Positions 2,705 to 9,962 of a DNA stretch of 61,607 bases are shown piece by piece. Every line of letters starts with the position of its first letter. The first letter of the stretch is position 1. Under the pieces are notes generated by a model. That model was not told the origin of the DNA, ran no database searches, and was given only the letters and a program-made list of their open reading frames with translations. This DNA is from Oligoflexia bacterium. Its GTDB lineage: Bacteria; Bdellovibrionota; Bdellovibrionia; JABDDW01. The stretch covers positions 1 through 61,607 of the forward strand of contig JADLCR010000092.1 of assembly GCA_020847095.1 (NCBI GenBank), written 5' to 3'. Made by a program: the position numbers and the translations under genes.

Positions 2705-3385
2705 ATGAAACAAGCTTGGCTTTTAATTTTTATTTCTCTCGCCCTGGCTTCTACGGCTCAATCCAAACAGTTTGTGATGAAGCTTGTGGGAATAGTCGGC
2801 GGCCAAGCCATTTCAAGCCGAGATGTTGAAGTGAGCCAGATGATTGATCGCGCTTTGTTTGCAAGTGGTCCGATTCAATCGCCAGGCTTGGGCTCGGCGG
2901 ATTTTACGACCTCACTCAATAAGCTCATCATTGAATGCATGGTGGATCTAGAGGCTAGAGATTTTGGTGTGGCGCGCGTTACAGATTCAGAAATTTTGCA
3001 GAGTGTTCAAATCGTAAAGTCGAGACTGCTAACGGGTGCAGCAAAAGCAAAGTGGAATTCTTTTGGAGTAGGTGAGACTCAGCTTAAAGAATTGGTGGGC
3101 CGGAAGCTTCGGGCCAATAGGTTTATTAAGTACAAAACCAATTCAAGTTTTGTACAAGTGACCGATGATGATGCTGAACGCTATTTCGAAAAAAACCGAA
3201 TTAAATTTGGCTCCCTAGAATTCGAAAAATTCAAAGCAAGTATCAAAAAATATCTCGCAAATAAGAATGCCGAAGATCGATTGCGTGACTGGTTTGAGAT
3301 TCTCAAGAAAAAGCATAAAGTGCGTAATCTCACAGGAGCCTCTGATGTCGTTAGCCCCAGTGGTACGACCCGCGACAATCTCTGA
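2705..3385 (+). CDS. SurA N-terminal-domain-like periplasmic chaperone
   Basis: 226 residues with a signal peptide (cleavage near residue 20, STAQSK). The segment VGIVGGQAISSRDVEVSQ is characteristic of the start of SurA/PpiD/PrsA-type foldases. Helices follow with the typical VTDDDAERYFEKN segment near residue 150, normally the linker to a parvulin PPIase domain. No parvulin domain is present, so this is a chaperone-only member of the family. A role in outer-membrane protein folding is an inference. The 3' end overlaps the downstream rimI-like reading frame by 41 nt, which suggests co-transcription. Confidence 0.7.
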   Translation: MKQAWLLIFISLALASTAQSKQFVMKLVGIVGGQAISSRDVEVSQMIDRALFASGPIQSPGLGSADFTTSLNKLIIECMVDLEARDFGVARVTDSEILQSVQIVKSRLLTGAAKAKWNSFGVGETQLKELVGRKLRANRFIKYKTNSSFVQVTDDDAERYFEKNRIKFGSLEFEKFKASIKKYLANKNAEDRLRDWFEILKKKHKVRNLTGASDVVSPSGTTRDNL

Positions 3386-3791
3386 TCTCAATCAGATTTA
3401 CCAAATTAATGTCCAAGTTCAGGCGTATCCTTGGTCTCAAAACCAAGTTAAGACCGAACTTGAGAGCGCGGCGGGGAGGCATTTTGTCGTTTTGGCGTCA
3501 AAGGCGTCAGTGTCAGCCTATGTATTGACCCGGGTGTCAGGGGCGGACCTTGAAATCACTTCCCTTGGAACGGCGATTGAGTTTCAAAGGAGCGGTTTTG
3601 CCCGGCTTCTTATTGAGTAGCTTAAAAAGCTGAATGATTTTGAGGGTCTTTTCCTTGAAGTTAGTGAGAAAAACGCCGAAGCCCTCGGGTTTTACGAGGC
3701 CAATGGATTTCAAAAGATAGGCGCGAGACCCCAATATTATCCAGGTGGCGAGGCCGCTTTGGTTTTTAAACTAGATCTTGCAAAAACCTAG
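3345..3791 (+). pseudogene. rimI: RimI-like GNAT N-acetyltransferase interrupted by an in-frame TAG
   Basis: The frame starts at ATG 3345 behind an AGGAG ribosome-binding site. It gives a GNAT fold: VRPATISDLNQIYQI, then AYPWSQNQ, then the start of the acetyl-CoA loop (QRSGFARLLIE). A TAG at 3618-3620 stops it after 91 residues. Past this codon the same frame continues without error to 3791 with the rest of the family signature (FLEVSEKNAEALGFYEANGF, then YYPGGEAALVF). In E. coli RimI, which acetylates the N-terminus of ribosomal protein S18, the matching position is Gln in LLIEQLE (from memory), so one CAG-to-TAG change explains the break. The truncated product would lack most of the active site. 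A recent nonsense mutation or a sequencing error is most likely; programmed readthrough is less likely. Confidence 0.8.
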
Positions 3792-3806
3792 TCTTTTTGC
3801 TACTTT
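3778..3806 (+). promoter_or_regulatory. Candidate promoter of the rimP-nusA-infB operon
   Basis: TTGCAA (3778-3783) and TACTTT (3801-3806) are separated by exactly 17 nt. Transcription would start near 3813, immediately before the intrinsic terminator at 3819. The -10 matches the consensus only partly, but the same GCTACTTT context recurs in the ssb promoter candidate. Confidence 0.4.
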
Positions 3807-3818
3807 TGCCACACTTTT

Positions 3819-3844
3819 GTGGGCCGCAGGGCCCACTTTTTTTT
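3819..3844 (+). terminator. Intrinsic terminator or attenuator in the rimP leader
   Basis: A perfect 7-bp stem (GTGGGCC, loop GCAG, GGCCCAC) is followed directly by eight Ts. It ends the rimI transcript and, if the promoter at 3778 is used, is also the first structure in the rimP-nusA-infB leader. Only 31 nt separate it from the probable rimP start, too little for another complete promoter and leader, so some readthrough seems required. Confidence 0.8.
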
Positions 3845-3875
3845 GATTGAGAGAGCTCTCGAATTCGGGTTTTTT

Positions 3876-4400
3876 TTGGATTTAAAGAGACTAGAAGACA
3901 CAATAAGACCCTTGCTGGAACAAGCTGGGTATCGGCTTTATGACTTAGAGTTTGTTGGCCGAACTTTGCGTGTCTACATCGAGAAGCCCGGAGACTCTGT
4001 CGGCATTGACGACTGTGTAGAGACCAGTCGTCTATTAAACCCTCTTCTGGATGTAGAAGACCTTATTCCCGGAGGACGGTACGAGCTCGAAGTTTCAAGC
4101 CCAGGTCTTGAAAGGGTTTTGAAGCGAGCGGAGCACTTTTCGTCGGCCGTCGGCTCAGAAGTTGTTCTTCATACGATCGAAAGTATGGAGAAGTGGAGCC
4201 CCCAGGACGCCTTTTTTTCTCAGCGGCGAAAATTGAAGGGGAAGCTGACCGGGTTTGACGGCGTTTGTCTGTCCATGGAGTCCGAGGGGCGGCAAATCAG
4301 TCTCCCGATGAGTGCTTTGAGTAAGGCGCATATTAGTTTTGAATTGGAAAAAGGTGAGAAAAAGGGATCTCAAAATAAAGGAAAAAAGGGATCCGCTTAA
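3876..4400 (+). CDS. rimP: Ribosome maturation factor RimP
   Basis: RimP binds the 30S subunit and assists assembly of its 3' domain. The protein has the family N-terminal alpha/beta domain (RPLLEQAGYRLYDLEF, then LRVYIEKPG), the segment IDDCVETSRLL and the signature YELEVSSPGLERVL, followed by the SH3-like C-terminal domain and a Lys-rich tail. I chose TTG 3876 as start because the longer frame begins at GTG 3819, inside a perfect terminator hairpin, and the residues it would add do not resemble RimP. The TTG lacks a good ribosome-binding site, so the start is uncertain by several codons. It is the first gene of rimP-nusA-infB-rbfA-truB. The length of about 174 residues is close to the family norm. 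Confidence 0.88.
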   Translation: MDLKRLEDTIRPLLEQAGYRLYDLEFVGRTLRVYIEKPGDSVGIDDCVETSRLLNPLLDVEDLIPGGRYELEVSSPGLERVLKRAEHFSSAVGSEVVLHTIESMEKWSPQDAFFSQRRKLKGKLTGFDGVCLSMESEGRQISLPMSALSKAHISFELEKGEKKGSQNKGKKGSA

Positions 4401-4426: not shown

Positions 4427-6037
4427 ATGGCAGATAACGTATTTTCTGAACTGAGTCGAATGATCGATCAGGTAGGAAAAGATAAAGGGATCGACAAGAA
4501 GGTCATCATCGAAGCCATCGAAATGGCCCTCGAAACGGCTGCTCGTAAAAAATTTGGAGCAAATAAAGAAATCGAGGCTCAATACAACGAAGAAACCGGA
4601 GATATTAAAATCTACGAATTCAAAAACGTTGTAGAAGAAATCGATCTTGAAGACACCGACATCTTATTGGATGACGCGCGTAAACTTGATCCAGACGTTC
4701 AAATTGGAGACAGTCTCGGGATCGAGCTTGATGGTTCACAGCTGGGCCGTATTGCCGCTCAAACAGCCAAACAAATTATCATGGGCCGCGTGCGAGATGC
4801 TGAGCGCGATATTATTTACTCTGAATTTCAAGAGAGAAAAGGCGATATCGCCAGCGGCATCGCTCGAAGACTTGAGCGAGGAGCTATTGTTGTCGATTTA
4901 GGTCGCACTGAAGCTTACCTTCCTCAACGTGAGCAAATCCCTGGAGAGATCTTTAAACCGGGAGATCGAATTCAAGGGTACATTGCTGATGTTCGTCAAA
5001 CAAATCGAGGCCCTCAAATTATTATGTCTCGGGCCGATGAGCGCTACTTAATGAAGCTATTTGAAATGGAAGTGCCGGAAGTTTATGACGGCATTGTTGA
5101 GATTAAAGCTGCTGCCCGTGAGCCAGGAAGTCGCGCAAAAATCGCGGTGACGAGCAAAGATCCGTCAGTTGATCCAGTAGGCGCTTGTGTTGGAATGAAG
5201 GGCTCGCGAGTTCAGAACATTGTCCAAGAACTTAAGGGCGAAAAAATCGATATCGTTCAGTGGAACGAAGACCCTTCGCGTTTTGTCTGCAATGCCCTTG
5301 CCCCTGCAGAAGTAAGCAAGGTTATTATGGACGAAAACTCCAAAGAAATGGAAATCGTTGTTCCAGACAATCAATTAAGTCTTGCCATCGGTAAGAAGGG
5401 CCAAAATGTCAGGCTCGCCGCAAAACTTTCGGGCTGGAAACTGGACATTTTAAGCGAAACAAAAGTCCAAGCGAAGACTCAAGAAGCGATCTTCAATCTT
5501 ATGCTTATTCCTGGAATCAGTGAGACCATGGCGCAGAATATTTACCAGTCAGGTTTTGGCTCGCTCCAAGAAATTGCAAAATCGACTATTGAAGACTTGG
5601 CAGAGATTCCTGGATACGACGGAGAAAAAGCACAAAAGCTCAAAGACACAGTTAATGAGCTTATTAAACAATACGAAGCCAGCGGAAAAGCTTTACCTAC
5701 GGCTGGTGAAGGTGAAGTGAGGGCCGTGTCTGGTGCTGTTGACGCCAAATCACTTGCCGAAGCTCGCTTGAGGATGGAATTGAATGCGTTGAAAACTCAG
5801 AATCAAAATTCTGAAAATACCGAAGACGCTAAGTCAGCTGATGAGCAGGAATTGCTTAAAGTCAGAGGAGTTGGTGAGACAACTGTTGAACAGCTCAAGT
5901 CCGCTGGGATTTTTACTGTTCAGCAACTGGCCGAGGCCGAAATTGATAAATTAACGGCCATTGAAGGAATCGGTGAGGCGAAAGCGCAGCAGCTTAAAGC
6001 AGATGCCTCTGCTCATGTGCAGGGATCCGCAAACTAA
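4427..6037 (+). CDS. nusA: Transcription termination/antitermination factor NusA
   Basis: 536 residues in the canonical order: an N-terminal RNA-polymerase-binding domain (1-125), an S1 domain (about 135-200, GAIVVDLGRTEAYLPQREQ), and two KH domains (about 230-345, including GACVGMKGSRVQNI and AIGKKGQNVRLA). The C-terminal region has two helix-hairpin-helix-type acidic repeats: MLIPGISETMAQN near 360, and VRGVGETTVEQL with IEGIGEAKAQQL near 480-525. The second repeat is separated by a low-complexity Gln/Asn linker. It binds RNA polymerase and nascent RNA to modulate pausing, termination and antitermination. The ATG follows AAAGGTAGG. Known NusA proteins often control their own operon, which fits the terminator before rimP. 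Confidence 0.97.
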   Translation: MADNVFSELSRMIDQVGKDKGIDKKVIIEAIEMALETAARKKFGANKEIEAQYNEETGDIKIYEFKNVVEEIDLEDTDILLDDARKLDPDVQIGDSLGIELDGSQLGRIAAQTAKQIIMGRVRDAERDIIYSEFQERKGDIASGIARRLERGAIVVDLGRTEAYLPQREQIPGEIFKPGDRIQGYIADVRQTNRGPQIIMSRADERYLMKLFEMEVPEVYDGIVEIKAAAREPGSRAKIAVTSKDPSVDPVGACVGMKGSRVQNIVQELKGEKIDIVQWNEDPSRFVCNALAPAEVSKVIMDENSKEMEIVVPDNQLSLAIGKKGQNVRLAAKLSGWKLDILSETKVQAKTQEAIFNLMLIPGISETMAQNIYQSGFGSLQEIAKSTIEDLAEIPGYDGEKAQKLKDTVNELIKQYEASGKALPTAGEGEVRAVSGAVDAKSLAEARLRMELNALKTQNQNSENTEDAKSADEQELLKVRGVGETTVEQLKSAGIFTVQQLAEAEIDKLTAIEGIGEAKAQQLKADASAHVQGSAN

Positions 6038-6067: not shown

Positions 6068-8677
6068 GTGGAGAATCTTAAAGTTTTTGAATTAGCAAAA
6101 CAGATGGGCATCGAAACCATTGCTTTGATGGATAAGCTTCGGGAGTTTAAAATTCCTGTGAAGAGCCACATGGCCGAGCTCGATGCGGACACCTTACAGC
6201 TCATTAAGGCTCGCTTTGATGAAGAAAAGGCGAAGGCTTCACTGAAAAGTGCGAAAACAACGCGCACCAAAAAGGCGGCGACTGCGGCAGCGCCAAAAGT
6301 AGCCAAGGCGGCCCCCAGTAAAGCAGAAGAGCCAGCTGCGGCAAAGCCCGCTCGAGCAAAGACTGTTGCGAAGGCGGCGGCTCCAAAGGCGAGCTCTCCT
6401 AAAACAGCTTCAGCTAAATCAACTCAGGCCGCCAAAGTTGTCATACGAAGAAAAGCCAATGCTATTGAACCTGAACTTACAGCACAAGAAGCTGAGGCGC
6501 AGGAAGAAGCACCGGTTGCTGAGGATTTGGCTCCGGCTGGAACTGAAACCGTAGAGACACAACCTGCACCAATTGACTCGACTCCTGGTATCAAGACGAC
6601 GAAAGTTATCAGTCGAATTGATTTAAGAACGACGATGGGTGAATCGGCACCTCGATCCACTGTGGTTCCGCGGCCCTCGCAGGTCGCAAAACCTCAGGCA
6701 CCAGCACCTACTGAAATACAGAATCGCGAAGAAATTGAAAAATTGATTAAGCAAGAAGCGCTTGCGCAAGCCAGAAAGGCTGCGGCTCTTGCAAGAGAAA
6801 CAAAGACACAATCATTTATTGCGGCCGATTTCAAAAAGCGCGAGGTTTTGTTTCAGCCTAAAAAGAAAAAAACGCTGACGGGCCGCGCCGCTCTTAAAAC
6901 CCAGATCACTAAGCCTGGCGAGAAAAAGCGCCGCATTAAAATTGAAGGCGTTATTTCGGTAAGCGCATTGGCTCAAGCGATGGGGATCAAGGCAACATTG
7001 GTTATCAAACAATTGATCAACATGGGCTCCATGGTGACTGTTAACGATGTTTTGGATTTTGAAACGGCGCAAATTGTTGCTCAAGAGCACGGCTTTGAAG
7101 TTGAAAACGTGGTGAGATCCGAAGAGCAGCTATTAAGCGCAACAACAGAAGCAAATCCGGCAAACTTGACTGAGCGACCGCCTGTTGTGACCATTATGGG
7201 TCACGTTGACCACGGAAAGACCAGTCTTCTCGATGCTATTAGAAAAACAAATGTGGCGAGCGGCGAGGCCGGTGGAATCACTCAGCATATTGGAGCTTAT
7301 AGCGTTGATGTTAACGGCCGAAAGATCACATTTCTCGATACTCCGGGCCACGAGGCTTTTACGGCCATGCGCGCACGAGGAGCGAAAGTCACTGACATCG
7401 TTGTGCTCGTTGTATCCGCCGATGACGGAGTCATGCCTCAAACAAAAGAGGCCATTATCCATGCGAAAAGTGCTGGGGTCCCAATCATTGTAGCCATTAA
7501 CAAAATGGATTTACCCGGAGCCAATCCTCAGAAAGTCATGCAAGCACTTACAGAATTTGAGCTTGTTTCAGAAGAGTGGGGCGGCACGACGATTATGGCG
7601 AAAGTTTCCGCCGCCAAAAAGCAGGGTATTAAAGAACTGCTTGAAATGATTTTGTTGCAAGCAGAAGTTTTGGAGCTCAAGGCCGATCCAAAGGCTCCTG
7701 CGCAAGGAACAGTCATCGAGGCGCGCTTGGATAAAGGGCGCGGACCGGTTGCCACACTTCTTGTGAGTCAGGGCACCTTGCGCACTGGCGACATTGTGGT
7801 TGTAGGAACCACCTTTGGAAAAGTTCGCGCCATGCTTAACGACAAAGGATCTCCCGTAAAAGACGCGCCCCCTGGAGCGCCGGTTGAAATACTGGGACTG
7901 CAGGCCGTTCCCATGGCAGGAGATTTGTTTAGCGCAGCAAAAACCGAGGAGCTCGCTCGAGAAGTGGCCGAAAAGCGACTTGAAAAATTGAAGTCTACTC
8001 AAGCCGCTCCTGCGATGAAAATGTCACTCGAGGATCTGTTTGCAAAAGCTCAAAGCGCTGAAATCAAAGAATTGGCAATATTGATTAAAGCCGATGTGCA
8101 AGGTTCCGCAGAAGCACTTAAAGAGCTCTTGTTAAAAATTCCGGCTGACAAAGTTAAATTGAAAATTATTGGCGCGGCCGTTGGAGGCATTTCTGAGAGT
8201 GATGTGTTGTTGGCCTCAGCGACCAGTTCAATCATCATTGGATTTAACGTGCGCCCCGAGTCTGGTGTGGCACAAATTGCAGCACGCGAGGGCGTTGAAA
8301 TTAAAACGTATTCCATCATCTATGATGTCGCTGATGATATTAAAAAGGCGATGACAGGACTGCTCGCTCCTTCATTTGTTGAAAAGGCATTGGGAAGAGC
8401 CGAGGTGCGGTCGCTGTTTAACGTTCCTAAAGTGGGAACCATTGCTGGTTGCGCCGTTATTGACGGCAAAATTACGCGTCAAGCGCACGTCCGACTCTTG
8501 CGAGAAAGCCGTATTGTTTATGAAGGCAAGCTTTCTTCGCTAAAACGATTCAAAGACGATGTGCGTGAAGTTCAAAACGGATATGAGTGTGGTATCGGAA
8601 TTGAGAATTACAATGACCTTAAAGTGGGCGACGTCATAGAAGCCTATATGAAGGAAGCTGTAGCTCAAACGATCTAG
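6068..8677 (+). CDS. infB: Translation initiation factor IF-2
   Basis: 869 residues, a GTPase that brings initiator tRNA to the ribosome. An IF2-N domain lies at 1-50. It is followed by an Ala/Lys/Pro-rich disordered linker to about 290 and a second IF2-N copy at about 295-350. The G domain starts near 365 with GHVDHGKTS (G1), DTPGHEAF (G3) and NKMDL (G4). Domains II to IV extend to the end and include [13 protein letters not shown] near the C-terminus. The start is GTG 6068. The gene lies 30 nt after nusA and 20 nt before rbfA, the standard order. The linker is repetitive in Ala and Lys codons. Confidence 0.97.
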
Positions 8678-8697: not shown

Positions 8698-9069
8698 ATG
8701 AATGAAGGGCGCCCCTCACACCGCACGGCTCGGATGGCCGATTTGGTTAGAGAAGAAATTGCACGTTATTTTATGGATGGCCTCAAAGACCCTCGTGTTG
8801 GGTTTGTGACCGTCACCGAGGTCAGAATGACCGCTGACCTTAAAATTGCACGGGTTTACTATACCGTTTACGGCGATCAGAAATCTAAAACCGAAACTGA
8901 AATAGCGATTAAAGAAAATGCCGGGCGTATCAGAAGTCATCTCGCCCGCGAAATGAGCGTTAAGTTTGTTCCGAGGCTCGAATTCTTTGTCGATGAAGGG
9001 CTCGAAAAGAGTTACGCGATTCAGAGTTTGCTTTCGAAGATTTCTCACTCTGAGGAGCCAAAATCATGA
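8698..9069 (+). CDS. rbfA: Ribosome-binding factor A
   Basis: 123 residues with the KH-like RbfA fold. Visible signatures are RMADLVREEIARYF, DPRVGFVTVTEVRMTADLK, ARVYYTVYGD and, near the C-terminus, KFVPRLEFFVDEGLEKS. RbfA is a late 30S assembly factor acting on helix 1 of 16S rRNA. The ATG has an AGGAG ribosome-binding site. The stop overlaps the truB start as ATGA, which implies translational coupling. Confidence 0.96.
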   Translation: MNEGRPSHRTARMADLVREEIARYFMDGLKDPRVGFVTVTEVRMTADLKIARVYYTVYGDQKSKTETEIAIKENAGRIRSHLAREMSVKFVPRLEFFVDEGLEKSYAIQSLLSKISHSEEPKS

Positions 9070-9962
9070 GTTTTCATGGAGTCCTGTTGGTTGACAAAGA
9101 AGCTGGAATGACAAGTCACGATGTTGTTCAACGGCTGAGAAAAATTACTGGCGAATCAGCGATCGGTCATGCAGGAACACTCGACCCTATGGCCACGGGA
9201 CTTTTGGTATGTCTCATTGGTGAAGCAACCAAGCTTAGCCAGTATGTGATGAACGAGCATAAAGTTTATTGGGTACAGGCAAAGCTGGGTGAACTCACGG
9301 ACACTGGCGACATCACTGGCCAAGTCATGGAAAAAAAGAGTGCGGATCATGTGACCTTAGAGATGGTTACTGAAATGAGCCAAAAATTGGTGGGGGCCCT
9401 CGAGCTTCCTGTTCCCATCTATTCGGCTGTAAAAATCAATGGGAAGAAACTTTATGAGTACGCCCGAAGCGGCGAGGCGGTTGACTTGCCTGTTAAGCAC
9501 ATGCAAATCAAATCAGCCGTGGTCCATGGATTTGAAAATGGGGTCGTCACTTTCACTCTAGAGTGCGAAAAAGGCACCTATGTCAGATCCTGGGTCGAGA
9601 AGTTGGGATCTTTATTAGGCTGTGGAGCCACTGTGCAAGCTTTAAGACGGGTGAGGGCCGGAGACTTCGTTGTTGAAGAGGCAAGGCGGCTCGATCAATT
9701 GACTCATGAACAGGGGTGGGAAAAAGCCCTTAGACCCATGGCTCAGGCCCTAGGACACTGGCCTATGCTTAAAGTGGTTGGCCGCGATGGAAGCCTCGTT
9801 AAACATGGTCAAATCCCAAAGGGCATCTATGCCCAATTAAGCCGATTTGAGTTTCAAGAGGGCATTAAGCTTATAGACGATAAGGAAGCCCTTTTGGCCC
9901 TGGTTATTGCCGATCAAAAGCGCATCCCAAAGCTTGCCCGAGTCTTTAATACCAAACGTTGA
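9066..9962 (+). CDS. truB: tRNA pseudouridine(55) synthase TruB
   Basis: 298 residues. It begins with GVLLVDKEAGMTSHDVV and has the catalytic motif GHAGTLDPMATGLL, whose Asp attacks uridine 55 in the T loop of tRNAs. The family segments VPIYSAVKINGKKLYEYAR and KGTYVRSWVEKLG follow. The C-terminal 60 residues look like the small PUA-like RNA-binding domain. It is the last gene of the rimP operon and overlaps rbfA by 4 nt. Confidence 0.96.
   Translation: MSFHGVLLVDKEAGMTSHDVVQRLRKITGESAIGHAGTLDPMATGLLVCLIGEATKLSQYVMNEHKVYWVQAKLGELTDTGDITGQVMEKKSADHVTLEMVTEMSQKLVGALELPVPIYSAVKINGKKLYEYARSGEAVDLPVKHMQIKSAVVHGFENGVVTFTLECEKGTYVRSWVEKLGSLLGCGATVQALRRVRAGDFVVEEARRLDQLTHEQGWEKALRPMAQALGHWPMLKVVGRDGSLVKHGQIPKGIYAQLSRFEFQEGIKLIDDKEALLALVIADQKRIPKLARVFNTKR

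Follow-up and report, generated by a model that had tools for sequence, protein, structure and literature searches.

Conservation of a putative promoter and a rimP-leader terminator hairpin as one unit ahead of the rimP-nusA-infB operon in Bdellovibrionota

The rimP-nusA-infB operon of an Oligoflexia bacterium, analysed here on a stretch of 61,607 nucleotides that we refer to as the window, probably has its own sigma-70-type promoter, followed directly by an attenuator of the rimP-leader kind, with NusA as the most likely tuner. Attenuators of this kind are already known, and what our sequence comparison would add is the conservation of a promoter-terminator unit in Bdellovibrionota: across 119 rimP loci it shows that the putative promoter and the predicted terminator are kept together as one unit ahead of rimP in this phylum. 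In a literature search over titles and abstract openings, which reached few subscription papers in full, no report of a promoter-terminator unit in Bdellovibrionota was found.

The -35 element of the operon promoter, TTGCAA (3778-3783, on the plus strand like the other leader elements and the operon genes), lies inside the last codons of an upstream rimI-like frame and is separated by a 17-nt spacer from an extended -10 element, TG-C-TACTTT (3798-3806), in which the TG at 3798-3799 stands one base before the hexamer TACTTT at 3801-3806. This TTGCAA-17-TACTTT candidate had been named in the initial annotation, without the extended -10, and could be read directly from the sequence; the extended -10 is also seen in the comparison below. 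Judging from the position of the -10 element, transcription is predicted to start 7 nt downstream of it, at 3813 (+/-2 nt), and the hairpin begins about 6 nt past this point. The close adjacency of promoter and hairpin that had been reported stands, while their distance, given as about 13 nt, was 12 nt when counted from the end of the -10 element. The hairpin itself, GTGGGCC-gcag-GGCCCAC (3819-3836), was identified by sequence, folding and comparison; its 7-bp stem is perfect and runs into eight Ts (3837-3844), as previously described, which places the predicted RNA 3' end at about 3841-3844. The terminated RNA is predicted to be about 30 nt long (28-32 nt) and to consist almost entirely of hairpin and U-run. 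Between the T-tract and the rimP start lie 31 nt (3845-3875), in agreement with the earlier count, and GGG at 3867-3869 may be a weak Shine-Dalgarno candidate for rimP.

Downstream of this leader, rimP (3876-4400) begins with a TTG, found in the same TTG-GAT context in two members of the window's family (L002 and L003), and its product matches RimP_N with an E-value of 2.6e-19. It is followed by nusA (4427-6037), whose product has NusA_N, KH_5, KH and two HHH_5 stretches over the cut-off and S1 just under it, by infB, encoding IF-2 and starting with GTG (6068-8677), by rbfA (8698-9069) and by truB (9066-9962). The TTG start of rimP in the window, apparently used also in L002 and L003, is preceded by a T-rich stretch in two of these three, an arrangement that may lower translation of rimP, the first gene. 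We considered and rejected a second terminator or an antiterminator at 3849-3877, where palindromes and a second T8 occur: the region 3843-3900 folds no better than its shuffles (z -0.81), and the second T8 lies in the ribosome-binding spacing, with a T-run found there in L002 and not in L003.

Within the window and its own genome, the hairpin is more than chance would give. Among 39 terminator-like sites in the window it is the only one in which eight uninterrupted Ts directly follow a perfect stem, and by stem energy it ranks fourth. For the predicted 32-nt leader a folding energy of -15.6 kcal/mol (z -3.96) was calculated, equalled by none of 200 shuffles. The pattern GGGC-N3-10-GCCC-N0-6-T7 has a single match in the 2.71-Mb genome, at the rimP leader. 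The promoter of the window taken alone is no better than chance: a manual count gave 7 of 12 consensus matches, and in a promoter scan it fell under the cut and was not listed, with 2.1 better sites expected per 2 kb. It becomes convincing only through sequence comparison.

Such a comparison of the leader across relatives, which the initial annotation had suggested, was made on 119 rimP loci from one phylum. They comprise all 59 genomes of a first search and 60 further genomes with a nusA match, which were taken among the nusA matches listed, so that this part of the sample is biased towards higher NusA similarity. Thirty-four of the further loci belong to the same class as the window, most likely Bdellovibrionia, giving 93 class loci in all; the other 26, from genomes of the same phylum outside that class, are called the sister group here. 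A rimP-like frame lies ahead of nusA in all 119 loci. A hairpin with a T-run was present upstream of rimP in every one of them: a first search window, reaching some 200 nt before the RimP N-terminus, contained it in 110, and a window widened to about 480 nt in the other 9. In the first window, to which the shuffle comparison is confined, a hairpin with a T-rich tail was found in 54/59 and 30/34 loci of the two class sets and in 26/26 of the sister group, against 50 of 595 dinucleotide shuffles; GGGC/GCCC occurred in 37, 18 and 22 of the hairpin loci of the three sets versus 2 of 595 shuffles. A GGG/CCC core could be set in register in 95 of the 119 loci, and two pairs outside this core form in 92/95 and 94/95, where 49.8 and 64.3 would be expected if the two sides were independent; since the hairpin finder demands pairing, these counts lean towards paired. 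The outer pairs are formed by several pair types, T-A, A-T and C-G at one position and G-C, A-T and T-A at the other, which gives backing for the stem and, because the finder asks for pairing, not proof of it. In four loci (L161, L162, L045 and L052) the core GGGC...GCCC is replaced by GGCC(C)...(G)GGCC, a two-sided change that keeps the pairing. In the genus that holds B. bacteriovorus (g10) the hairpin is present more than 135 nt upstream, and five of its loci (L008, L011, L013, L017 and L027), whose 5' region is unusually long, have another conserved inverted repeat downstream of the rimP-leader hairpin and ahead of rimP; this repeat resembles CTGGACTCCGTCCAG and lacks a T-run. In a set of loci from outside the phylum that partly overlaps it, a raw count under a looser position rule gave the hairpin in 31 of 39 usable loci, that is, 41 given minus 2 without a rimP-like frame.

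The promoter is conserved along with the hairpin. The strict pattern TTG-N17-TGNTA, whose motif was first noted in the first set alone and which was fixed after viewing all sets, occurs within 75 nt before the hairpin in 84 of 110 loci: 44/54 and 23/30 in the class sets and 17/26 in the sister group. The corresponding counts were 94/10800, 44/6000 and 41/5200 in shuffles (0.7-0.9%) and 31/9902, 0/5315 and 0/4605 in random windows. The genomes are related to one another, and after crude thinning the pattern remained in 52 of the 70 class loci and in 15 of the 24 from the sister group. When all 119 hairpins were considered, 75 of the 93 class loci carried it, and in 64 of these the hairpin follows the end of the -10 element by 5-15 nt; in the sister group the median gap from -10 to hairpin is larger, at 26 nt. 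Among the 84 class loci whose hairpin lies in the first window, 17 are without the strict pattern, one of them L003 from the family of the window itself, and two loci (L025 and L056) were scored as misses because a neighbouring hairpin was picked automatically, a GGGC hairpin also being present. A GGTCAC box recurs in six loci outside the class (L177, L178, L181, L183, L188 and L198), where it lies downstream of the -10 element and just ahead of the hairpin, close to where the RNA is predicted to begin; in the sister group it may be contacted by a protein or an RNA. Searched across the 59 whole genomes, the joint promoter and hairpin pattern has 38 occurrences in 34 genomes; rimP accounts for 33 of these occurrences, the other 5 lie elsewhere, and the reversed control was found at 5 places. 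The layout that had been proposed, a promoter and then an attenuator, was thus supported by the comparison: the two are kept together before rimP in the class and in the sister group, and the stem matches that of the published rimP-leader.

The rimI-like frame upstream raises another explanation, namely that the hairpin does no more than terminate this gene, expression of rimP coming from another site or from read-through. A rimI-like acetyltransferase gene lies directly upstream of rimP in 54/59 and 26/34 class loci, where a terminator would be ordinary, and in the window its frame (3345-3791) ends 27 nt before the hairpin. The end of that frame, however, overlaps the rimP promoter, and RNAs begun at this conserved promoter, placed between the end of rimI and the hairpin, must meet the latter. 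Moreover, no rimI relative was detected with this query in the 26 sister-group loci, where other frames lie upstream of rimP, several sharing one C-terminal ending by eye; because hairpin and promoter persist there with rimP, the hairpin is not merely the terminator of rimI. The earlier claim that the 31 nt before rimP are too few for a separate promoter also speaks against this explanation in the window; it does not extend to the class, in which the stretch from the 3' arm to the RimP anchor reaches 218-305 nt in L011, L024 and L032. Altogether we regard a plain rimI terminator as decidedly unlikely. An in-frame TAG at 3618-3620 breaks the rimI-like frame of the window, which runs uninterrupted in relatives such as L002 and L003; this could reflect a true pseudogene or a difference in assembly or base calling.

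The attenuator reading of the leader is well supported by these sequence features, and it agrees with what has been published on the kind. The rimP-leader was the most common attenuator in the set of Naville and Gautheret (2010), for which NusA was proposed (PMC2965389). It shares with our leader a GGGc...gCCC stem with a U-run right after it upstream of rimP-nusA-infB and a gene distance of 4-130 nt (31 nt here); the published leader has no evident antiterminator or larger conserved element (PMC2965389), and in the folds of the window none was seen. The authors remarked that the motif is absent from other terminators; GGGC..GCCC..T7 has its single match at rimP in the window's own genome, and most of the 59 genomes have further matches elsewhere, so that it is not specific to rimP in those relatives. 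Here a promoter conserved in the comparison abuts the hairpin, whereas the published section on this leader describes no promoters for the phylum (PMC2965389). In S. agalactiae the same operon yields RNAs of a short and a long form from a single start, with intrinsic termination 31 nt after the start by RNA-seq, compared with the 28-32 nt predicted here (PMC4448216). The metY-rimP-nusA-infB leader of E. coli likewise has terminators upstream of rimP, and the transcripts of that operon rise when NusA termination is reduced, NusA controlling its own operon there; that leader differs from ours in having a tRNA gene, several promoters, the terminators t1 and t2 and RNase III sites (PMC6511841). 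No tRNA lies at the operon head in the window, whose sole tRNA is a tRNA-Leu at 1021-1107 on the minus strand. Rfam model RF01770, with which the E. coli control scores, gave no match at the window leader at the gathering score; the one Rfam hit of the window at that score is a tRNA, and relaxing the limit to E 10 brought nothing around the leader beyond unrelated sub-threshold matches. Three sub-cut-off RF01770 matches in relatives were rejected, lying on contigs other than the nusA contigs of those genomes.

On the attenuator reading, RNA polymerase would start near 3813 and make about 30 nt before the terminator; at the GC hairpin and U8 it would either release a short RNA or read through into rimP-nusA-infB-rbfA-truB, and the read-through fraction would set the output of the operon. 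More free NusA, which the second gene encodes, would bring more pausing and termination, and with it less NusA and IF2, a negative feedback. What the comparison shows is the sequence elements, how they pair and that they are conserved jointly ahead of rimP; we infer where transcription starts, that in the cell it either terminates or reads through, and that NusA is what regulates it. The published map of transcription starts in B. bacteriovorus gives none for the growth phase (PMC3627812). Autoregulation of NusA in B. subtilis was reportedly described by Mondal and others in 2016. Upstream of the hairpin the predicted transcript would have no room for an antiterminator strand, an arrangement that speaks for a protein, or for a fixed fraction reading through, and not for a riboswitch.

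For this leader, control by NusA is our best guess, by analogy with E. coli, where NusA feedback on the same operon has been reported (PMC6511841), and with S. agalactiae, where it has been proposed (PMC4448216). We hold it possible, although more tentatively, that the attenuator has another tuner, be it RimP, NusG or Rho, retained sigma or growth-rate effects on initiation, or none at all, a fixed fraction reading through. The strong stem and the unbroken U8 suggest NusA-independent termination, which may need little help from NusA; RimP too was named as a possible feedback factor by Naville and Gautheret (PMC2965389), and in E. coli a fusion of the rimP 5' UTR and ORF fell in a rho mutant. 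A very efficient terminator ahead of an essential operon would in any case require some route of read-through. In this class the hairpin stands so near the predicted start that the terminator might fold during sigma release: polymerase already carrying NusA would terminate and polymerase without NusA would escape, so that read-through would report the exchange of sigma for NusA and the leader would be a minimal sensor of free NusA needing no other RNA element. We consider this version unlikely. That the hairpin stands some 6 nt from the predicted start in the window would also suit a role mainly in stabilising the read-through mRNA at its 5' end, with termination secondary; but a stabiliser needs no T-run, and T-rich tails, which the finder required, follow the hairpin throughout, while the wider median gap in the sister group would leave the hairpin farther from the start. 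We consider this role highly unlikely. Most improbable of all is a trans-acting, small-RNA role for the short terminated product: although rimP-leader RNA appears among attenuator-derived ProQ-associated RNAs (PMC5391140), an RNA of about 30 nt that is nearly all hairpin and U-run has little room for a seed.

The promoter-terminator unit described here extends a published and little-tested attenuator to a phylum of predatory bacteria. If the proposed NusA feedback is true, these organisms would hold a complete autoregulatory circuit in about 60-70 bp of DNA, and the leader would offer an easy test case for the action of NusA on very early elongation complexes.
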